DNA of 37,745 bases from Myxococcota bacterium. GTDB lineage: Bacteria; Myxococcota_A; Polyangia; Polyangiales; Houyiibacteriaceae. The stretch spans positions 1 through 37,745 of the forward strand of contig JANQQS010000205.1 of the NCBI GenBank assembly GCA_028284955.1. Reading direction: 5' to 3'. The notes under the pieces are model-generated. The model did not search any database. It was not told the origin of the DNA and saw only the letters and a program-made list of their open reading frames with translations. The position numbers and the translations under genes are program-made. This document shows, piece after piece, positions 2,961-37,745 of this stretch; the first letter of the stretch is position 1, and every line of letters begins with the position of its first letter.

Positions 2961-5516
2961 TCACGGCTCGGAAGAAATCTCTGCTTGCGAGCCGTCGGTG
3001 CCGGCCGCGCCGGAGTTGCCGGGGGAGAATCCGCCGCGGCCGCCTTGGCCGGCGACGCCAACCGTTTCTACGGTGATCGTTTCAGCGAGGGCGGCTCGGT
3101 AGGCTTCGCTGGCTACGCCTTGCAGCAAGACGCCGTGGCTACCGCCTCCGCAGCCGCCACCGCCACCACCGCCCGAGCCTCCGGCGCCGCCATCGCCGCC
3201 GCGGCCTCCGGTTCGGGCGCAGAAGAACTGTCCTTCGCCGCCGGACGCTCCGTTGCCAGGGGCGCCTCCGGATGCGCCGACGCCGCCGTCCCCACCGCTG
3301 CCTCCGCTCGCCGTGACGACGCGGACATTGCCAAACGTAGGCCCGGTAGACCCAGAGGATCGGTCGAGCGCGATCAAGATACCGATCGAGGCGCCGCCTC
3401 CGGTTCCTCCGTCGGCTTGGGGCGCGCCGCAGCCACCGCTTCCGCCGCCCCCGCCGCTTCCGCCAGCCCGGTCATTGCAGGTTCCGGTGGTGCCACCGAT
3501 GCGCGCAAACCCTGCGCCAGCGCTGCCGCCTCCGCCGCCAGATCCGTTTTGGCCGGAAGTTCCAGAGCCGCCGGGTCCGCCGCGCACCCGTCCGGCGCCC
3601 AGATCAACTAGTGGAGCCGCTTCGCAGCCCAATCCGCCGCGACCATTTTGGCCGGGCGCGCCGTCTGAACCGTCTCCGCCGTCGCGCGGCAGCGATGGGT
3701 TGTCGTCACAGAAGTTGCAGATAATCCGATTGGTGGGTGCGTTGTACGTTACTTCGCCGGCCGCGCCTCCGGCCCCGCCGCGGCCGCGTTCCGGCGCGGG
3801 GTTGGACACCGCCACGCGGAGCGCAGCGTCCAAGTCGCAAACGCCGCCGAACGTGAAATCGGTACAGCCGGCGTTTCCGCAAGGCCGTCCATTGGTGCAC
3901 CCGAGGTTGGGACACGCGCCGGGTCCGCCGTTTCCTCCGCTCACATTGGCCAAGGCGCAGCTCTTTGCGCCGCCGGCTCCTGGGGGAATATTGAAACATA
4001 CGGTGCCGGTGGTGCCCCGATTGCCGCGCCCGCCAGGGACGCCATCGAGGTCGGCAAGACGAGAAAAACCCAAGTCGGGCAGATTCTCGCTGGAATCGCG
4101 ACCACGGACGCCATCCGCGCCTCGGCCCGCGATCACTTCGAACGAGTCGAACACCACCGTTTCGGTGCATTCGTCGACAAACAGCGCAGTGCTTCCTTCG
4201 CCCGGGGCGGCAGCATCGGTGGCTTGGATCGAGAAGCCTTCGATACGGGTGGGTTCGGTGATCCCCCGGCAGGTCACCACGGGCGCGCCGGGGGCGGCAT
4301 TGCGTTGTTCGATCATCACCGGAAACAAGGTCAGGTCTCGGTCGCGAAAGTCGGGGCGATAGCCGCCAAACACAGAAACCCCGCCAACTACATCGAGGCC
4401 CCCGGTGTATACCCCGCGCGCCACGAGCACGTCCCGCCCAGTGGCTCGGCCGCGTTCGATGCCCGCTTGAATCGTGCGCAAGGGGGCGACCAAGGTGCCC
4501 GGGTTCCGATCGTTTCCGCTTGTTGTGACGTGGATAAACTCGTCGCTATCGTCCACTACCCCGTCGCAATCTGCGTCGCCTCCGATGGCTGGGGGGGGGC
4601 CTTCGCCATCAAAGATTTCGCATTCGCAGCCGTTGGCTCCGATTCCGTCTACGTCGACAAAGCCGTCGACGCAGGAGACTTCGCATCGAGGTTCGCCTGC
4701 GCTCGGCACACACTCGGCGACGGTATTGGGCCCCGGCTGCGGACACGCTTCGCCGCAGCGCCCGCAGTGCAGCGGGTCTACGTAGCGCCCTTCGTCGTCC
4801 CGAAAGTTTTCGTCTACGCGACCATCGCAGTCGTCGTCCTCTTCGTTGCAGACTTCGTCGAGCGCGGCGGCGCATGCGCTGAGACCGTCGTCAGAGCAGA
4901 GCTGCTGTCCTGCGCAGATCCGGCCCTCGTCTGACTCGACGAGGCAACCAAATTCTGCGCCGAGAGTTTCGTCCGAGCAGGCGCAGACGCCGTTTGCGGG
5001 GGCGCACAATCGCGCGCCATCTATCTCTGTACATGAGAAACCGGTTGGACACTCGTCTTCGCAGGGAATGAGGCATCGACGGTCGTCTGCGTCCACCGCG
5101 ATGCAGCGCGTGCCCTCAGCTCCCGCCGCGCAATCATCGTCGTCTTGGCACGGCAAACATGCGACCGGCGCATCCTCGAGGCAGGCCCCGTCGTCGCCTC
5201 GATGGGTTCTGCTCGGGCAGCGCACGATGCGACAGCTCGCCGTTCCCGCTTCTCGATCGACCGCGCACTCAGTTTCTTCCGCAGTGGGAAATACGTCGGC
5301 GCAGCGCACGCCGCACCCGCCGCAATGTTCTTCGGATGCGTAGATGCCGTCTTCGACAAAGTCTTCGTCGACCCGCTGGTCGCAATCGTTGTCCGCGAAA
5401 TCGCAGGTTTCTTCTTCGCCGCAGATACGTTGCTCGTAGCAACCGGTCGAGACCGCAGCGGCGAGCGCCCATCCACACGCCATCCATGCCTGGGATGCAC
5501 TATCGCGCCAGGACAT
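2961..5516 (-). CDS. MopE-motif / DUF1565-like / Gly-rich lipoprotein, second of a tandem pair
   Basis: 851 residues. The signal peptide ends in lipobox V-S-T-G-C (Cys26). Two MopE-type motifs follow: CDFADNDCDQRVDEDF near residues 38-53 and CNEEDDDCDGRVDENF near 220-235, each with a downstream C-G-x-C-G. Between them is a region with many paired cysteines. A segment reading VTTSGNDRNPGT...PLRTIQAGI...VLVARGVYTG resembles the DUF1565/right-handed beta-helix start seen in surface proteins. The C-terminal half is a long Gly-rich region (GGxGG units) broken by Cys-containing loops. It starts 17 bp inside the end of its upstream paralogue, so the two are co-translated. Likely surface-exposed; MopE-type motifs are associated with metal binding, but no ligand can be assigned. 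Confidence 0.85.
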   Translation of the reverse strand: MSWRDSASQAWMACGWALAAAVSTGCYEQRICGEEETCDFADNDCDQRVDEDFVEDGIYASEEHCGGCGVRCADVFPTAEETECAVDREAGTASCRIVRCPSRTHRGDDGACLEDAPVACLPCQDDDDCAAGAEGTRCIAVDADDRRCLIPCEDECPTGFSCTEIDGARLCAPANGVCACSDETLGAEFGCLVESDEGRICAGQQLCSDDGLSACAAALDEVCNEEDDDCDGRVDENFRDDEGRYVDPLHCGRCGEACPQPGPNTVAECVPSAGEPRCEVSCVDGFVDVDGIGANGCECEIFDGEGPPPAIGGDADCDGVVDDSDEFIHVTTSGNDRNPGTLVAPLRTIQAGIERGRATGRDVLVARGVYTGGLDVVGGVSVFGGYRPDFRDRDLTLFPVMIEQRNAAPGAPVVTCRGITEPTRIEGFSIQATDAAAPGEGSTALFVDECTETVVFDSFEVIAGRGADGVRGRDSSENLPDLGFSRLADLDGVPGGRGNRGTTGTVCFNIPPGAGGAKSCALANVSGGNGGPGACPNLGCTNGRPCGNAGCTDFTFGGVCDLDAALRVAVSNPAPERGRGGAGGAAGEVTYNAPTNRIICNFCDDNPSLPRDGGDGSDGAPGQNGRGGLGCEAAPLVDLGAGRVRGGPGGSGTSGQNGSGGGGGSAGAGFARIGGTTGTCNDRAGGSGGGGGSGGCGAPQADGGTGGGASIGILIALDRSSGSTGPTFGNVRVVTASGGSGGDGGVGASGGAPGNGASGGEGQFFCARTGGRGGDGGAGGSGGGGGGGCGGGSHGVLLQGVASEAYRAALAETITVETVGVAGQGGRGGFSPGNSGAAGTDGSQAEISSEP

Positions 5517-8139
5517 CGATCGCTCCTCCGGACGCTCCGTTTCCGCCGGGGGCGGCTCCTCCTCCGCCTTGGCCCGCGCCGCCTGCTCGGCTCGTGGTAA
5601 TTTCGTTGTCTCGCCGAATTTCCTCCGCGCTTAGCGATCCGCCTTGGACCCAGACGCCAATGGACGCGCCGCCGCATCCGCCGCCGCCGCCGCCGCCGCT
5701 GCCGCCCTGGCCGCCGCGCCCGCCACGGCTTCCCGGAAACGGTCCGGCGAGGGTCGGCGTCGAGCGGGCGTCTCGGGAAATCGACCCTCCAAAGCCGCCT
5801 GGCCCACCGGGGCCTCCGTCGCCGCCAGCGCCGCCGCGTCCGCCGCGTCCGCCGTCACCTGGAAAAATGCGCAGATTCTCAAGCGTGGGGGTCGCGCGCG
5901 GCTCGATGATGAGCATGCCCACCGACGGCCCACCACTCGTTCCGGCGGTTCCGGCGGTGCCTCCGCACCCGCCTGCGCCGCCGCCGCCGCCGCCCCCGCC
6001 GAGGCCGTCGACGAATTCGCATAGGTCATCGACCCAGGTCATTTCTGCGCCGCCCCCGGCGCCTCCTCCTCCTCCTCCGCTTCCGGGCGCGCCATCGGTT
6101 CCATCTTCTGCGGTTCCCGGAATCCAAGCGTCTGCGTCTAGAGTTCCGAGCGGTCGCCCGCATCCGCGGCCGGAATCACCCGCGGTCCCGTTGCGTCCTG
6201 GGCTGCCGGGGAGCGAACTACGAAAATCGGAGGGCACGGTGAAATCGGCGAGGCCGCAACACACCCGCTCCGAGCACGCTCGCCCGGTGATGGGGCCTTG
6301 GGAATCCTGCCCGCCCCGGCCCCCGGCTCCGCCCGCCAGGGCGCCCGCGTTGCCCCCATTGCCTCCGGCGTTTTGGACCGCGGCAAAATCAGGGCAGCCG
6401 GCAGCGCCTCCTACTCCCCCGCGGACTCGGACGTCGCCACATTGGCTTTCGCCGCCAGTTCCTCCGGTCACCACGTTGCGGCTATCGGCGATGCACTGAT
6501 GGCCGGCGGTTTCGATCGCGCCTCGGGGTGCGGCGCCATGGCCTGCGCCTCGGTCTGGGCCGATACCGGCGGAACCATCGGTGCCGTCTTCACCTGTGCC
6601 GCCTACGCCCGCGCGAATATCGCAGTCGCGCAGTGTCAAACCCGCGCCGGTGCGCTGAAGCAGCACCCCGTATGCGGGTTCAGATGCTCCGCTGGCGTCT
6701 GCTCCTCGAAAGGAAACCCATTCGACCAGTGTCGTCTGCGTGCCAACATCGACGGCGCGAAGTGCAGGGGCGCCGGGAGCGAGGGAATCTGCGGGGGCGC
6801 GCACTTCCACGCGAAAGCCGCTGGGGTCGAGCGCGAGATAATCTCGGCGATAACCGCCGTGCACCGACACACCGTCCGGCAGCTGAATGGATTCGGTGTA
6901 GTTGCCAGAGGCGATGTACACGTGGGGTCTGGGCGCATCGGTGTCGAGGGATTCGGCGGAGCGGCGCATGGCTTCGCGAAGAGTACGAAGCGGCCGAGTA
7001 GGCGAGCCCGGCGCCTCGTCGTCGCCATCGGGTGCGACGTAGAAGCTTTCCACCACCACCCCGTCGGCCCCGTCGCAGTTTGCATCGAGCGCCGCGCCTT
7101 GCGCGCCTACCGGGCCGGGGACGTCGCTCAGATCGCTGACGAGGCATTCGCAACCGGTCGCGATGGTGCGATCGCCGTCCACTCGGTCGCCAACCTGCAC
7201 ACCATCGTCGGCGTCGGTACAGCGGAGAACACAGGACGGTGCGAACGGGTCTCCGCCGCAAACGAGCTCGACCCCCGGCGCCGCACCTTCGCGGCAATCG
7301 ACCCCGCATTGGCCGCAGTGGGCGATATCGATACTGTAGGCTTCTCGTTCGTCGCGAAAGCCTTCGTCGAGCAGCCCATCGCAGTCATTGTCGACTTCGT
7401 CGCAGACTTCCTCGGGCACCGCGCATTCGGATAGCGTCCCGTCGTCGCACGATGCGGTGCCCGCGCATCGATTGCCTTCGGGGTCAGCCAGCGCGCACGC
7501 CAGGTCAAACGTATCGCCGGGATCGCAACGACAACTTCCTCCGGCGGGAATACAGATGTTTCCATCGTCTTGGCAACGATATCCATCAGGACAACCAAGG
7601 TCGCAGGCCACCACGCAACGCGGCTCGCCGCCTACGTCGACGCATCGAGCTTCCGCGAGATCACCGCAGTCGCCGTCGTCCTGGCACGGTAAGCACAGCC
7701 GTTCGAGCCGCGGCACACAGCGTCCGCTTCGGGACGGACCAAAACCCGTCTCGCATTGTGTTGCCGCGCAAGTGGGGGTTTTGTCTATCAATGCACACTG
7801 GGCGGTGACCACTCGGGAGCCATCGGCGATGCATGCCTGATTGCATCCGCCGCAGTGCTCGCCACTGATGTAGCGGCCTTGGTCGTCGCGGAAGTCCTCA
7901 TCGACGCGGCCGTCGAGGTCGTTGTCCTGGCCGTCGCACGATTCGTCCTCGGCGTTCGGGGCGGGCAATACTTCGGCATCGATGTCTCGCAGCGTGGCCG
8001 AACGACCGCAACCCGCGATTGCAATGACCACGGTGCACCACCACCAGCCGAGCCAGGGTGATACGTGATTTCGAGCTATGACGTACGTATTTTGCGCAAT
8101 TCCAGCATTGCCGATCGCGAACGTCTGGTTCGAATACAT
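5500..8139 (-). CDS. MopE-motif / DUF1565-like / Gly-rich lipoprotein, first of a tandem pair
   Basis: 879 residues, collinear with the downstream 851-residue protein and clearly a diverged duplicate. The start at 8139 is the only ATG. It gives an unusually long N-region before the hydrophobic stretch and lipobox A-I-A-G-C (Cys44). MopE-type motifs are CDGQDNDLDGRVDEDF (near residues 70-85; the usual internal Cys of NDCDG is Leu here) and CDEVDNDCDGLLDEGF (near 235-250). The DUF1565-like segment (FYVAPDGDDEAPGSPTRPLR...YIASGNYTESI) is followed by a Gly-rich half with GGAGG/GGxG repeats. It ends with a conserved G-V-W-V-Q-G-G patch whose counterpart in the paralogue is G-V-L-L-Q-G. Transcribed divergently from a LuxR-HTH regulator. 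Confidence 0.85.
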   Translation of the reverse strand: MYSNQTFAIGNAGIAQNTYVIARNHVSPWLGWWWCTVVIAIAGCGRSATLRDIDAEVLPAPNAEDESCDGQDNDLDGRVDEDFRDDQGRYISGEHCGGCNQACIADGSRVVTAQCALIDKTPTCAATQCETGFGPSRSGRCVPRLERLCLPCQDDGDCGDLAEARCVDVGGEPRCVVACDLGCPDGYRCQDDGNICIPAGGSCRCDPGDTFDLACALADPEGNRCAGTASCDDGTLSECAVPEEVCDEVDNDCDGLLDEGFRDEREAYSIDIAHCGQCGVDCREGAAPGVELVCGGDPFAPSCVLRCTDADDGVQVGDRVDGDRTIATGCECLVSDLSDVPGPVGAQGAALDANCDGADGVVVESFYVAPDGDDEAPGSPTRPLRTLREAMRRSAESLDTDAPRPHVYIASGNYTESIQLPDGVSVHGGYRRDYLALDPSGFRVEVRAPADSLAPGAPALRAVDVGTQTTLVEWVSFRGADASGASEPAYGVLLQRTGAGLTLRDCDIRAGVGGTGEDGTDGSAGIGPDRGAGHGAAPRGAIETAGHQCIADSRNVVTGGTGGESQCGDVRVRGGVGGAAGCPDFAAVQNAGGNGGNAGALAGGAGGRGGQDSQGPITGRACSERVCCGLADFTVPSDFRSSLPGSPGRNGTAGDSGRGCGRPLGTLDADAWIPGTAEDGTDGAPGSGGGGGGAGGGAEMTWVDDLCEFVDGLGGGGGGGGAGGCGGTAGTAGTSGGPSVGMLIIEPRATPTLENLRIFPGDGGRGGRGGAGGDGGPGGPGGFGGSISRDARSTPTLAGPFPGSRGGRGGQGGSGGGGGGGCGGASIGVWVQGGSLSAEEIRRDNEITTSRAGGAGQGGGGAAPGGNGASGGAIDVLAR

Positions 8140-14030: not shown

Positions 14031-14215
14031 GAGGGTCTGGCACCCAGACCCTCTCGCCCGGGATACGATCCCGGACGATTCACCCAAACTCCCCCGCCAA
14101 GAAACACGCGTTGTGCAGTCCTGGTGTTTGCTGCTGGGGCCCCGCCGCTACGCGGTGGGCGGACGCGAAGCGGCCGGAGTCGGGAGGGGGTCCCGCGCGG
14201 GTATGAACCGGGCAC
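14031..14215 (+). repeat. Multi-hairpin intergenic repeat, copy 1 (right end degraded)
   Basis: Left end: an outer hairpin at 14031-14053 (arms GAGGGTCTGG and CCAGACCCTC, loop CAC), then an inner hairpin at 14058-14074 (arms CCGGGAT and ATCCCGG, loop ACG). A linker box reading CACCCAAACTCCCCCGCCA follows at about 14081. Then come a variable stretch, a CCCCGCCGC/GCGGTGGG hairpin and a degraded CGGCCGC-type stem to about 14205. The same module order occurs at 14331-14542 and, on the other strand, at 37389-37726. There is no ORF of interest inside. Confidence 0.8.
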
Positions 14216-14220
14216 ATCGA

Positions 14221-14329
14221 CAGATTGGGCCAGATTGGGGACGGGGTAATTTCTTTCCCCGTCCCCGATCTGCCCCCGATCGTCCCCGATCTGCCCCCGG
14301 TCCCCGATCTGCCCCCGATCTGCCCGCCG
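14221..14329 (+). repeat. Long hairpin plus degenerate GATCTGCC tandem units
   Basis: A 16-bp stem with one G-T pair is formed by 14231-14246 and 14257-14272 around a 10-nt AT-rich loop. The right arm continues into three imperfect units starting TCCCCGATCTGCCC at 14262, 14283 and 14301. It replaces the left end expected for repeat copy 2. An overlapping open frame encodes a Pro/Asp-Leu repeat only because of this periodicity. Confidence 0.7.
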
Positions 14330-14330
14330 A

Positions 14331-14542
14331 TTCACCCAAGCTCCCCCGCCAGGATGCACGTGTTCTGGTTGTCTAATGGGTGTACTGCAGTCGTCTGTTC
14401 GCACAATCACCGCAACGAATGTGCGACGCGTAACCGGGGCCCCGTCGCGCGGCGATGGGGCGGCCGCGAAAGCGGCCGGCGTCGGGAGGGGGGCCCCGCG
14501 GAATCGTATTCCGCGGGGGGAGGGGCTGCGGCCAGCCCCTCC
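14331..14542 (+). repeat. Multi-hairpin intergenic repeat, copy 2 (complete right end)
   Basis: Begins with the box ATTCACCCAAGCTCCCCCGC, then a variable stretch. Four hairpins follow: CCCCGTCGC/GCGATGGGG (14440-14460), CGGCCGC/GCGGCCG with a GAAA loop (14461-14478), CCCCGCGGAAT/ATTCCGCGGGG with loop CGT (14494-14518), and GGAGGGGCTG/CAGCCCCTCC (14519-14542). The last two are the inverted equivalents of the inner and outer hairpins at the left end of copy 1. Element ends are therefore inverted repeats, each built of two hairpins. Confidence 0.8.
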
Positions 14543-33742: not shown

Positions 33743-33760
33743 CTGTGCAGGTGCCGACAC

Positions 33761-33902
33761 GGGTTCAGTGTCGGCGTCGGTTTCGGCATCAGCGTCAGGT
33801 TCGGGTTCAGCAACTGCATCAGGTTCGGGTTCAGCGTCTGCATCAGTATCCGGTTCGGCGTCGGTTTCGGTTTCGGTGTCTGGGTCGGCATCGGCATCGG
33901 GG
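33761..33902. repeat. Hexanucleotide-periodic tract NTCNGN between moaB and pfkA
   Basis: About 23 consecutive hexamers fit N-T-C-N-G-N on the plus strand (GTCGGC, TTCGGT, ATCAGC, ATCGGC and similar). On the minus strand this reads N-C-N-G-A-N, that is codon pairs [S/P/T/A][D/E]. That minus-strand frame is open from about 33970 but has no start codon, so no gene is called. The remaining about 100 bp to pfkA hold its ribosome-binding site (GGGAGGAG at 33996-34003). Confidence 0.75.
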
Positions 33903-34006
33903 GCACCCGCTGCTGCCGCTGCTCGAGGTTGGGAGTAAACTCGACGCAGCCCGTTTGGTCTGCGACAAACCTATTGTCGGCAGCGACATTCGGTTGGGAG
34001 GAGCGC

Positions 34007-35107
34007 ATGGGAGCGAAACGAGTCGGCATCATGACAGGAGGGGGCGATTGCCCCGGGCTCAACGCGGTGATTCGCGCGGCAGTACGCGTGGGATGCGAAC
34101 GCCACGGGTTTGAGATGCTGGGCATTGAAGACGCGACCAACGGGCTCATTGACCTCGACTATCGCAGCCCAAGCGGCAACCAATGGCTTACTCCGGCGAG
34201 TGTACGCGGCATTCTCGCTCGCGGAGGCACCATCTTGGGCACTTCCAACAAGAGCGACCCGTTTCATTTTGTCGCGACCGTAGAAGGCAAAAAAGTCGAG
34301 ACGGATGTCAGCGATCGCGTGATGGAAAACTATCGCAAGCTCGATCTCGACGGCGTCATCTCGATCGGCGGCGATGGTTCGATGCGTATCGCCAAGCAGT
34401 TCATGGACAAAGGCATGAACGTGGTCGGGGTGCCCAAAACGATCGACAACGACCTCAGCGCCACCGACCAGACCTTTGGCTTCGATACCGCGGTGCAGAT
34501 CGCGTGCGAAGCCCTCGACCGCTTGCGCGATACTGCCGAAAGCCACGATCGCGTGATGCTCGTAGAAGTCATGGGCCGTGACGCGGGCTGGATCGCGTTG
34601 CACGCGGGGATGGCCGGCGGAGCAGACGCCATCTTGATTCCCGAAATCCCCTATACACTGAGCGCAGTCGCCGATGTCATCAAAAAGCGCCGTGCGGCGG
34701 GTCAGTTCTACAGCCTCATCGTGGTCGCCGAAGGTGCGAAGCCGCGAGGCGGGCAAGTATGCGCGCTCGAGAAAAAGCTCGGCGAGATGCCGCGCCTGAT
34801 GGGTGCGGCCCACCGCGCAGCGGAAGGCCTATCGGAGGCGCTCCCGGATATCGAGATGCGCGTGACGGTGCTCGGCCACATTCAGCGAGGCGGCAGCCCC
34901 TCGAGCTACGATCGGGTACTCGCCACGCGCTACGGCGTCGCCGCCGCAAACCTCGTCGCATCCGGCCAATACGGCATGATGACCGCGCTCAAAGGCGGCA
35001 GCATCCAGTCTGTGCCGATCGCCGACGCAGTCGCCGAGCCCAAGGTCGTTGACCCGGAAGGGGAGCTGGTGCGGGCGGCGCGAGAGATTGGCGTGAGCTT
35101 CGGCTAG
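34007..35107 (+). CDS. pfkA: 6-phosphofructokinase (ATP or mixed-signature type)
   Basis: 366 residues from the ATG at 34007 with a good ribosome-binding site. Motifs: GIMTGGGDCPGLNAVIR at 7-23, GGDGS at 121-125, PKTIDNDL at 143-150, MGRDAGWIALHAG, and GHIQRGGSPSSYDR. GGDG (Gly, not Asp) is the ATP-type residue, while PKTIDND has the Lys seen in PPi-type enzymes in place of the E. coli Gly. The combination is typical of the longer mixed clade of bacterial and plant ATP-PFKs. It phosphorylates fructose-6-phosphate in glycolysis. The phosphoryl donor needs assay. Confidence 0.93.
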   Translation: MGAKRVGIMTGGGDCPGLNAVIRAAVRVGCERHGFEMLGIEDATNGLIDLDYRSPSGNQWLTPASVRGILARGGTILGTSNKSDPFHFVATVEGKKVETDVSDRVMENYRKLDLDGVISIGGDGSMRIAKQFMDKGMNVVGVPKTIDNDLSATDQTFGFDTAVQIACEALDRLRDTAESHDRVMLVEVMGRDAGWIALHAGMAGGADAILIPEIPYTLSAVADVIKKRRAAGQFYSLIVVAEGAKPRGGQVCALEKKLGEMPRLMGAAHRAAEGLSEALPDIEMRVTVLGHIQRGGSPSSYDRVLATRYGVAAANLVASGQYGMMTALKGGSIQSVPIADAVAEPKVVDPEGELVRAAREIGVSFG

Positions 35108-35223
35108 GTCGGGTCACGACGCGCGGGTTGCGTGGGAGTCGATGCAAAGTCATATCCCGGCTCAGACCTTGCGAGCTCGCGACGGCTACGAAGCACGAGC
35201 GTGTCGCCCCATGTGAGGAGGTA

Positions 35224-36006
35224 GTGAGCAGTACCCGGAGAAACGCGCCGCCATGGCTTGTGTCGGTGCTGATGTGTCTATCGTGCGCGGCAGCTGTAGA
35301 GCCAGAGCCGGTCGAGTCGAGCGAAAAGGCTATTCCCGCCCTTCTCGTGAAGATCGCGGTGACCTATGGGATTGCCGAATGTGTCGCCGACGACTGGTGC
35401 CGAGGCGTGCTCGCGGGCGCGCTGGCTCATGCGGCGGCAGCCGTGCAGGGCGGGGTGAATTTGGCTTCGCAGCTGACGAACTGGAACACGCTCGCATCCG
35501 GTCAAAAGGAAGAAACGGTTCAAGCGATTGAACGGTTAGCGCAATCCGAAGCGGCGGCGCCCAGCGGATACGATCCGGACAAAGATCTCGAAGGCGTGGT
35601 CCCGGGATCGACCAAAACTGGAGCGTGGCCGGAGAGTATGGGACCGGCGAACGGTGTTCCCGCAGCGGACGGACCGCTACATTACCTGATTTTGCACAAC
35701 GGAATATACGAGGCACTTTTCACTCTGAATGGTTGTTATGGTTCGGATGCACATATCGAGATGCACGAGCATCTACTCAAGACTTGGAAAACAGCGTGGT
35801 TTGGCAACTTGGCCGAACTGCCTCGCGAAGTATTACCGGCGCTGATGGAAGCGTTTGACCGCCTGAAGAACGACCTTGCGGAGTGCGACTTCGAAAAATC
35901 GCTGTTGCGCGAAGTGGTGTGTGGTTTTCGAGCCATCATGCTCATCGCGGTGGGGCCGACAAGCAAGACGGTCCAGGCCATCGAACATTGGACCAAGTGC
36001 GATTGA
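35224..36006 (+). CDS. Secreted protein of unknown function with six mature cysteines
   Basis: 260 residues from a GTG at 35224 immediately after GAGGAGG; the longer frame from 35128 has no such signal. N-terminal signal peptide (APPWLVSVLMCLSCAAAVEP), either cut by signal peptidase I at A-A-A/V or lipidated at the weak lipobox. The mature protein is mainly helical and has six cysteines (ECVADDWC, NGCYG, AECDF, VVCGF, TKCD), consistent with three disulfides. No recognised domain. It stands alone between pfkA and a 577-bp intergenic block. Confidence 0.65.
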   Translation: MSSTRRNAPPWLVSVLMCLSCAAAVEPEPVESSEKAIPALLVKIAVTYGIAECVADDWCRGVLAGALAHAAAAVQGGVNLASQLTNWNTLASGQKEETVQAIERLAQSEAAAPSGYDPDKDLEGVVPGSTKTGAWPESMGPANGVPAADGPLHYLILHNGIYEALFTLNGCYGSDAHIEMHEHLLKTWKTAWFGNLAELPREVLPALMEAFDRLKNDLAECDFEKSLLREVVCGFRAIMLIAVGPTSKTVQAIEHWTKCD

Positions 36007-36583
36007 CGTGCGTTCTCTTTTTCGCTGATTGATCGGCGTAACTTCCCAAAACTGATCGTAGAAACGGCGAAACTTTCGTTGCGCACCGCATGTGGTTTCG
36101 CGTCGGGTTCGGCATCGACGTCTGCGTTTGTGGGGTGGTGGCGTTTTGCGTTGGCCGTGAGCCTCTGGCTCGCTGTGAGAACGGGATCGGTATCGGGAGA
36201 GGCGTCGGGAACAGGGTCGGAATCAGGAAGGGTGGCGGGGTTGGGATCGGGAGAGGCTTTGGCTTTGGGGTCGGGATTTGTTGGTCAGGTCATCTTGGGT
36301 TCCTTTGGTTTGGGGCTTCATCGTAGAGCTCCTGATGTTTGGGTTGAGGGTCACGCCCCGTCTTGACCCTCAACCCGAATATCAGGGGCGGATGCAGAGG
36401 CTGAATCTGATACGGACACGGGCGCCGACACCGACGCCGAACCTGATGAACCGGATGCTGAACCAGACATCTGCATCGGCGTCTGCATCAGCATCTGATT
36501 CTGCGTCCGCTTCGGTATCGGCGTCAGCGTCTGATTCAGCGTCAGAGTCGGCGTCCGCCTCGGCTCATCCGCTCTGCGTTGGT
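36007..36583. repeat. 577-bp intergenic block of hexanucleotide tracts and a long hairpin
   Basis: No convincing gene. The first part (about 36095-36126 and 36183-36290) is a loose G-rich hexanucleotide tract in NTCNGN phase. A strong hairpin follows at 36331-36386. Then comes a tract of the opposite phase (36388-36468, reading [A/S/T/P][D/E] codons on the plus strand), switching at 36469 to a clean NTCNGN tract (36469-36567; the same dipeptide on the minus strand). Neither acidic frame has a usable start. The plus-strand frame that is open through here encodes Ser/Ala repeats and is not considered real. Confidence 0.7.
36331..36386. other. Long near-perfect inverted repeat (23-bp stem)
   Basis: Arms 36331-36353 and 36364-36386 pair over 23 bp with two mismatch or wobble positions; each contains GGGTTGAGGGTCA or its complement, with a 10-nt loop. 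It lies 325 bp downstream of the secreted protein's stop and about 200 bp downstream of dcd's stop on the other strand. It could terminate either transcript, but there is no T run. Confidence 0.7.
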
Positions 36584-37159
36584 CTACTTATCGCGGTCTT
36601 GCCCGATTCGACTCGCCACCGGGCCCATCTGCCCTTGGTATTTGCTGCCCCGACCGGGGCCGTAGGGCCGTTCAGCAGCGCGGGTGAGCTGGTGAAACAC
36701 GATCTGGGAAATGCGCATGCCGGGATGGAGCTTAACTGCGCATCGGCCGAGGTTGCTGAGCTCGAGGGTGATTTGGCCTTCGAACCCGGGGTCGATGAAG
36801 CCTGCGGTAGCATGTACGACGACGGCGAGCCGGCCGATACTGCTTCGTCCTTCGACGCGGGCCACCAAATCGGCGGGGACCTTGACCCGCTCGAGCGTCG
36901 CGCCGAGCACAAACTCGCCCGGCTGCAGCACAAACCCTTCGTTCGGCGCGATTTCGATCATCTCGGTGTAAGGCTCGAGGCTCTTCGGATCGCGCGCATC
37001 AATGCACGGCACGTGAGGCAGGCGATAGGCACGAAACTTGTTGGCGAGACGCAAATCGATGCTCGCGGGTTGAATCTGAGTATCGTAGTCGTCGAGCGGG
37101 TCGACCACGATGTCTCCCGCGTCGATACGGGCGCGTAAATCTACGTCGGCCAAAATCAT
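36584..37159 (-). CDS. dcd: dCTP deaminase
   Basis: 191 residues, matching the about 193 of the E. coli enzyme. Conserved trimer and active-site motifs: IQPASIDLRL at 29-38, RVEGRSSIGRLAVVVHATAG at 101-120, FIDPGFEGQITLELSN with the catalytic Glu at 133, GMRISQIVF, and the C-terminal KYQGQ lid (GRGSKYQGQMGP). It deaminates dCTP to dUTP for dTMP synthesis. The monofunctional type is likely; the bifunctional dUTPase form was not assessed. Its ATG overlaps the stop of the small upstream acidic ORF (ATGA). Confidence 0.96.
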   Translation of the reverse strand: MILADVDLRARIDAGDIVVDPLDDYDTQIQPASIDLRLANKFRAYRLPHVPCIDARDPKSLEPYTEMIEIAPNEGFVLQPGEFVLGATLERVKVPADLVARVEGRSSIGRLAVVVHATAGFIDPGFEGQITLELSNLGRCAVKLHPGMRISQIVFHQLTRAAERPYGPGRGSKYQGQMGPVASRIGQDRDK

Positions 37160-37380
37160 GCCCAGAATATGGCCGCTCGAACTGGCAAACGCAATCGCCG
37201 GGGATCTGGCGTCGGAGGGGACGCTGGATCGGATTCGGGACCAGGATCGGGATCTGGTTCAGCATCAGGATCGGCATCGGCATCGGGATCGGGGTCGTCA
37301 TCGGGATCGGGGTCGGCGTCTGGTGCGGCATCGGGTTCAGCGTCGGAATCGGCTTCGGGCTGAGGTTCGGAGTCGCTCAT
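37156..37380 (-). CDS. Small acidic dipeptide-repeat ORF coupled to dcd (tentative)
   Basis: 74 residues from the ATG at 37380 to a TGA that overlaps the dcd ATG. About 50 residues are a degenerate [P/A/S][D/E] repeat (SDSEPQPEADSD..., DPDPDADADP), followed by a basic C-terminus (RRLRLPVRAAIFWA). The DNA shows a hexanucleotide pattern with fixed C, G, A and variable codon third positions, as expected for a coding repeat. No strong Shine-Dalgarno precedes it. It might be a leader peptide for dcd, a real small protein, or the best-preserved copy of the intergenic tracts at 33.8 and 36.4 kb. Confidence 0.35.
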   Translation of the reverse strand: MSDSEPQPEADSDAEPDAAPDADPDPDDDPDPDADADPDAEPDPDPGPESDPASPPTPDPRRLRLPVRAAIFWA

Positions 37381-37388
37381 CTTACCGA

Positions 37389-37726
37389 CCACGCAACCAC
37401 CAAGCGTGCGTCCTGGCAGGGGAGCTTGGGTGGCAGTGTTGTTCAGAGGGTTTGATGCAAACCCTCCTCCCCGCGGGAACGACCCGCGCGGGGCCCCACC
37501 CGACTGTGTTTTTTGGAGGGTCTGACCCCGCAGATCCTCCCCCCGCGAAATACGATTCCGCGGGGCCCCCCTCCCAACGCCGGCCGCTGCGCGGCCGCCC
37601 CACCGCAAAGCGGCGGGGCCCCAGCAGTTCAACCCCACGCAACCATGTCACGTGCGTCCTGGCGGGGGAGCTTGGGTGAATCGGCGGGGTCGTACCCCGA
37701 CGAGAGGGTCTGGGTGCCAGACCCTC
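37389..37726 (-). repeat. Multi-hairpin intergenic repeat, copy 3 (inverted, with an extra right end)
   Basis: Read on the minus strand from 37726: outer hairpin 37704-37726 (same arms as copy 1), inner hairpin 37685-37699 (CGGGGT/ACCCCG, loop ACG), the CACCCAAGCTCCCCCGCC box (37643-37681), CCCC-x5 hairpin 37598-37618, CGGCCGC hairpin 37581-37597, CCCCGCG hairpin 37541-37565, and closing outer hairpin 37515-37540. A second right-end module follows (about 37466-37500 and GAGGGTTTG/CAAACCCTC at 37446-37466), then a second CACCCAAGC box at about 37389-37432. The last about 20 bp of the window continue past the left end and hold no gene. Confidence 0.8.
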
Positions 37727-37745
37727 AAACAACAGAGCCCAGACC

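Follow-up and report, generated by a model that had tools for sequence, protein, structure and literature searches.

A REPIN-like family of multi-hairpin repeats in Myxococcota: inverted double-hairpin ends, compensatory stem changes and probable mobility in trans

The intergenic multi-hairpin repeat carried by the 37,745-nt stretch of DNA analysed here (the window) is best explained, with a probability of roughly 0.7, as a mobile palindromic repeat of non-autonomous type that behaves in the manner of REPs and REPINs and likely moves as folded single-stranded DNA by means of a hairpin-recognising enzyme acting in trans. The element is multi-copy, has inverted double-hairpin ends and stems with compensatory changes, is inserted precisely and without duplication at the resolved sites, lies 3' of genes and forms head-to-tail clusters. 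The evidence supports REPIN-like behaviour well, but does not support a RAYT-dependent REP.

Architecture of the element and its copies in the window

Comparison of full copies indicates a canonical element of ~210 nt. Its unit is a double hairpin (P1 and P2) followed by an unpaired TTCACCC motif and a C-rich linker, for a length of 61–68 nt, and the element usually comprises two such modules, inverted to each other, around a structured centre. From left to right, it displays a T-rich flank (CTGTTTTNTTT), P1 (consensus GAGGGTYTGG-CAC-CCARACCCTC), P2 (TCG...CGA with an ACG-type loop), a left linker (consensus TTCACCCAARCTCCCCCGCC), a variable centre including P3, P4, P5 and an optional further domain, a right linker (consensus GGAGTYGGGWGGGGG), and then P6 and P7, which precede an A-rich flank mirroring the left one in inverted form. 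The left and right linkers show partial complementarity and pair with each other in the predicted folds of single copies; through this pairing, one strand can, as modelled, fold into a cloverleaf. The initial annotation had described the right end as the inverted equivalent of the left one. Two models built separately each recognise the other end on the opposite strand, the left-end model R3 matching the right end (14484–14541, – strand, E 1.4e-3) and the right-end model R2 matching both left ends (E 6e-6 and 3e-5); therefore, the right end is indeed the left end inverted. Furthermore, a 234-nt copy from the window is much more stably folded than its 200 dinucleotide-shuffled versions, both as DNA (z –5.4) and as RNA (z –4.3). 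The P2 stem shows a pyrimidine mismatch at the fourth pair in most copies of the source genome and of genus g74, and mismatches at four fixed pairs in genus g9; read on the opposite strand, they become G.A mismatches. A stem mismatch is needed for the cleavage of Escherichia coli REPs (PMC8266576) and one is likewise present in P2, a likeness that goes no further than resemblance.

The interval 14031–14542, first taken for a single copy, is a composite of a partial copy A, a foreign tandem array and a partial copy B, and the boundaries initially proposed for the repeat thus belong to two different copies. All features of this interval are on the + strand. A PALP-family (cysteine synthase-like) gene precedes copy A in the same direction, and 25 nt past its stop codon the copy starts with P1, the outer left hairpin GAGGGTCTGG-CAC-CCAGACCCTC (14031–14053). 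This is followed by P2, the inner left hairpin TCGCCCGGGAT-ACG-ATCCCGGACGA (14054–14078), with the family-typical single mismatch at the fourth pair, by the left linker TTCACCCAAACTCCCCCGCCA (14079–14099), where TTCACCC is the conserved unpaired motif, and by P4, the central hairpin CCCCGCCGC-TAC-GCGGTGGG (14140–14159). The last segment (14160–14202) includes P5, the right linker GGAGTCGGGAGGGGG and the first arm of P6, and copy A ends abruptly within the P6 hairpin, near its tip (~14202). The foreign array (14221–14331), located outside the element between the two copies, is G+C-rich, consists of units around CCCCGATCTGC and includes a hairpin GGGGACGGGG-TAATTTCTTT-CCCCGTCCCC; the other fetched loci contained no pieces of it.

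Copy B is 5'-truncated, starting at ~14326 without P1 and most of P2. It retains the final bases of P2 and the linker TTCACCCAAGCTCCCCCGCCA (14326–14351), a central region of a longer type whose optional domain is common to L003, L007 and other loci (14352–14439), P4 CCCCGTCGC-GCG-GCGATGGGG (14440–14460), which is compensated relative to copy A, P5 GGCCGC-GAAA-GCGGCC (14462–14477) and the right linker GGCGTCGGGAGGGGGG (14478–14493), partly complementary to the left linker. Its right end is made of P6, the inner hairpin CCCCGCGGAAT-CGT-ATTCCGCGGGG (14494–14518), and P7, the outer hairpin GGAGGGGCTGCGGCCAGCCCCTCC (14519–14542). The four terminal hairpins are therefore as initially described, including the ACG and CGT loops. 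The arm changes quoted between copies (GGGAT/ATCCC versus GGGGT/ACCCC; TCTG/CAGA, GCTG/CAGC and TTTG/CAAA; GTCGC/GCGAT versus GCCGC/GCGGT) are all present, and the interval harbours no transposase ORF, as claimed.

The window carries three other copies, all on the – strand. Copy C (37515–37736) is a nearly complete canonical element that includes the T-rich flank, P1 (37704–37726), P2 (37681–37703), the linker, P3 to P5, the right linker, P6 and P7. Head-to-tail behind it lies copy D (37445–37507), reduced to a right end (linker, P6 and P7), directly followed by copy E (37389–37432), a linker fragment starting from CACCCAAGCTCCCC. Long imperfect short-period repeats, probably coding, occupy positions 33750–37380 and 2990–6120 of the window.

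In the source genome, copies frequently form head-to-tail clusters that include copies cut close to a hairpin tip. The junctions of these clusters (for example in L002, L014, L027, L028 and L055) recur at few points: after ACACAG, the next copy begins at CACCCAARCTCC or CTCCCCCGCC, or at the P1 tip. Many of these recurrent junctions are at or beside hairpins, as if hairpins had been opened and rejoined. In genus g74, many copies (L181, L192, L266) display an extra hairpin AGAACATCGAGCGG..CCGCTCGATGTTCT upstream of the T-rich stretch and P1, which at one site was inserted together with the element.

Distribution and genomic placement

The source genome is a 6.07-Mb draft in 223 contigs. It yields 105 BLAST matches to the repeat stretch and at least 150 copies of the double-hairpin module (151 covariance-model matches to the left end, the weakest listed having an E value of about 1e-15), a lower bound, 150 of the 5146 first-look candidates having been scored. 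The family therefore extends well beyond the copies of the window. About forty of the copies among the matches listed start less than 600 nt from the low end of a contig; the repeat thus breaks the assembly.

Relatives were also found in other Myxococcota of the class. A search of 184 genomes from the order with the left-end model detected the element in the source genome, in two genomes of genus g9 and in six of genus g74, and units also occur singly in both genera. The general model R3 matches 23 of 318 class genomes, some of which belong to families f22 and f31; the examples inspected look genuine, the weakest matches having been only partly inspected. When 379 genomes sampled evenly across the phylum were searched at E 1e-4, no match lay outside the order. 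A genome from another family (G020; L054, L058) carries tandem arrays that resemble the right end of the window element, with different P6 stems. Carriage by plasmids or phages was considered and discarded, neither collection giving a match. An exact-pattern search returned no match in viral contigs and, in genome contigs, only two g9 MAGs, obtained with a pattern outside the variant of the source genome. In the part of the literature covered, no account of a comparable repeat in myxobacteria was found.

According to codon-usage gene calls on the draft genome, the copies are nearly all intergenic, and 74 of 78 follow the stop codon of a co-directional gene, within 40 nt in about half of the cases. 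The gaps concerned separate tandem genes (18 versus 2 by orientation), convergent genes (27) and, once, divergent genes. In g74, copies span convergent gaps from stop to stop and, unlike those of the source genome, show no strong orientation bias in tandem gaps (9 versus 7). Relatives within the class are located directly behind a tmRNA gene (L214, 1136–1560) and between tRNA-Arg and tRNA-Ser genes (L225, 1422–1757). The placement may stem from targeting or from survival, and the repeated insertion into gaps of few bases suggests some targeting. Two g9 copies lie in frame within the 3' part of an ORF, one before leuB (L060, 1501–1583) and the other at the end of an ilvB-like gene (L253); judging from their reading frames, they are apparently translated. 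Translated repeats have been reported for some REPs and for Rickettsia palindromic elements.

Compensatory stem changes and presence or absence at orthologous sites

The changes in the stems are compensatory, as had been proposed from the few copies of the window. For 64 distinct modules of the source genome, 63 two-sided cells were counted versus 3 one-sided ones (0–7 two-sided cells in slid controls), and 25 sequences from the source genome and g9 gave 44 two-sided cells and no one-sided cell (3–10 in slid structures); in each set, all 500 shuffles stayed below the covariation score. Since the 64-module alignment was fitted to the structure and the copies are related, these cell counts are not independent events, and it is safer to count the pairs altered on both sides, of which there are 6 in the 25-sequence set and 9 in the 64-module set. 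The comparison between families provides stronger evidence of compensation, as the stems share little. Indeed, three further families of the class show the same layout with wholly different stems, for example GAGGGGGACGCC..GGCGTCC in g74 and CGCCGCGGC..GCCGCGGCG in f22, and the junction CCCTC-T-[stem]-A-TTCACCC is kept across families. In P1 and P2, G.U cells represent 3 of the 66 changed cells that still pair, and the sense strand shows no excess of G.T over A.C. The use of wobble counts to find the strand of action was abandoned, P1 and P2 showing no asymmetry and the patterns for P6 and P7 matching both strands.

Orthologous sites, fetched using pieces of the flanking proteins, were compared in the relatives. 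In g74, three insertions (seg1, seg3 and seg4) are filled in one species and empty in five others; their joints can be read to within a few ambiguous bases and show no duplication (empty state, e.g. TGACGAG|ATGGCAGG). At a fourth g74 site, about 25 nt are replaced by the element. At a fifth one, two species are filled, one retains only the last hairpin, one perhaps the last few bases, and two are empty; the remnants (L274, L275) are possible footprints of excision or deletion. In g9, 11 of 14 sites of G008 are devoid of the element in G015. Viewed through these sites, the family is clearly mobile in g74 and g9, and the mobility of the copies of the source genome would follow from that of these relatives.

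Filled orthologous pairs give two different pictures. In one of them (L182 versus L210), a two-sided change of P1 was made in place, and selection acting at that locus could explain it as well; in the other (L265/L273), both P1 and P2 have undergone one-sided decay in L273. Taken together, the observations suggest a mobile element for whose movement the structure is important, idle copies being free to decay.

Target-site duplications, whose search had been recommended in the initial annotation, were found neither at 35 clusters of the source genome, where the best scores were no better than controls, nor at the resolved empty sites of g74. Four of 17 short g9 copies (L080, L083, L084 and L088) are flanked by direct duplications of 11–28 bp, which simple duplication-free insertion leaves unexplained; three of these four duplications copy the start-codon region of the downstream gene, which stays intact. 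Likewise, pure insertion combined with tolerance does not predict an orientation bias that is strong in the source genome and absent in g74.

Mode of movement, known systems and rival explanations

Movement would involve a folded single strand of DNA. A strand-transfer enzyme that recognises hairpins, provided in trans, would read the shape of the hairpins and the unpaired motif, rather than the stem sequence, and would join the element precisely into its target without duplication; copies would then survive mainly in short gaps behind stop codons. The single-stranded intermediate and the kind of enzyme are deduced from the features described above, and selection for mobility would keep the stems paired.

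Like REPs of the GTAG and CGTC superfamilies, these elements are high-copy palindromes located behind tandem or convergent genes and rarely between divergent ones. REPs are found beside the 3' ends of ORFs, either convergent or upstream ones, sometimes supply a stop codon or lie in frame in ORFs, and fall into subfamilies distinguished by complementary residues in the stem (PMC3733652). However, the unit described here associates two hairpins with TTCACCC and is therefore longer than a REP (20–40 bp), its stems are far more variable between families, it has no GTAG/CGTC foot and no RAYT adjoins it. REPINs are inverted REP doublets whose single strand adopts a clover fold, and occur as singlets, doublets and clusters (PMC3116915). 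The element shares with them this range of arrangements and the inversion of two units around a spacer, but its centre is a structured multi-hairpin region with optional domains, and no associated RAYT was found.

IS200/IS605 elements insert without target duplication. Their subterminal hairpins are recognised as folded single strands (PMC6006769). Unlike the ends of these elements and of their non-autonomous derivatives, those described here are inverted to each other instead of being both on one strand, and no tnpA parent was found. BOX elements of Streptococcus pneumoniae are modular, multi-hairpin, non-autonomous and scattered in intergenic regions, where they sometimes form the 3' ends of genes (PMC3049150); this likeness is one of description, and BOX differs by its tandem boxB modules and IS-like ends.

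The mobilising enzyme was sought by genome-wide searches for Y1 transposases (PF01797) and reverse transcriptases (PF00078). Spread driven by a reverse transcriptase, an idea arising from the 5'-truncated tandem copies, was rejected for the source genome, which has no RVT_1 match. It does encode one RAYT-like Y1 protein (C158, 302 aa, HxH motif), while G008 and G015 carry two RAYT-like genes each and the genomes of family f22 many. The element might therefore be an ordinary REPIN with an atypical tag, moved in trans by the Y1 transposase (RAYT) of its own genome. This is improbable: no element is found near this sole Y1 gene or near the other RAYT genes examined, the alignments of the source genome, g9 and g74 reveal no conserved unpaired GTAG/CGTC foot (where CGTC does occur, in some copies, it is part of the variable P2 arm), and four genomes (G151, G152, G153 and G120) harbour elements without any Y1 match at E 1e-3. 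One of them, G151 (13.3 Mb, 2 contigs), contains at least 22 modules. Therefore, the family should not be filed among RAYT-dependent REPs. It is possible that a former partner transposase was lost; for REPs, partner loss after spread has been described (PMC6006769), which would fit this alternative too. In G008, a Y1 gene (L124, 1320–2190) is flanked by long inverted repeats (...CAAAATGAAAACTGTC...) unrelated to the element. The initial suggestion of a MITE or REPIN-like element mobilised in trans thus stands for its multi-copy, non-autonomous and REPIN-like nature and for its presence or absence at orthologous sites, and does not stand for the target-site duplications and the partner transposase that were expected with it.

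A classical MITE derived from a DDE insertion sequence with terminal inverted repeats would account for the inverted ends, the lack of ORF, the high copy number and the inverted T-rich and A-rich flanks. It is nevertheless very improbable, given the lack of target duplication at the 35 clusters and the resolved empty sites, ends that are each palindromic, and units that are also found singly in g9 and g74. The initial annotation had also evoked a structured RNA family. A host RNA structure at the 3' end of the upstream gene, terminating transcription or protecting the mRNA, would explain covariation through selection on the RNA fold and agrees with the position just past stop codons, the orientation bias of the source genome (74:4), the copies beside the tmRNA and tRNA genes, the strong RNA fold and a G.T pair fixed on the sense strand of P4. 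On the other hand, the scarcity of G.U cells, by which selection on RNA is usually recognised, and the lack of G.T excess in P1 and P2 argue against it, as do the absence of a T-run after the hairpins and of any Rfam family (no match in the window, with chance-level matches only near the foreign array). Copies are, moreover, present or absent between congeners or, like L273, decayed on one side in both hairpins, which makes this alternative improbable as the main explanation; an RNA role may still contribute. Template switching in near-perfect palindromes, which copies one arm onto the other and would generate matched changes without selection, would be expected to yield two-sided changes lacking wobble intermediates, and the frequent cuts of tandem copies near hairpin tips hint that hairpins form in vivo. 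It is rather unlikely, as the P2 pyrimidine mismatches persist uncorrected at one fixed pair in the source genus and g74 and at four in g9, as L273 is also uncorrected and as the unpaired TTCACCC is conserved across families; such switching may, however, act together with the mobility in trans of a REP/REPIN-like element, which remains the preferred explanation. More tentatively, this element could represent a further REP-like superfamily, defined by a double hairpin plus the unpaired TTCACCC and by exchangeable stems, and spread by an enzyme other than Y1/RAYT or by a cellular hairpin-processing route.

The location of these repeats at many contig ends explains the practical trouble of this assembly. 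The literature ties the movement of REPs to RAYT transposases; a family that is found in several families of one class, is mobile and is kept in genomes without detectable Y1 separates REP-like spread from RAYTs. It also offers a test case of what a mobile hairpin must keep, namely its shape and an unpaired heptamer, versus what it may change, namely the letters of its stems.
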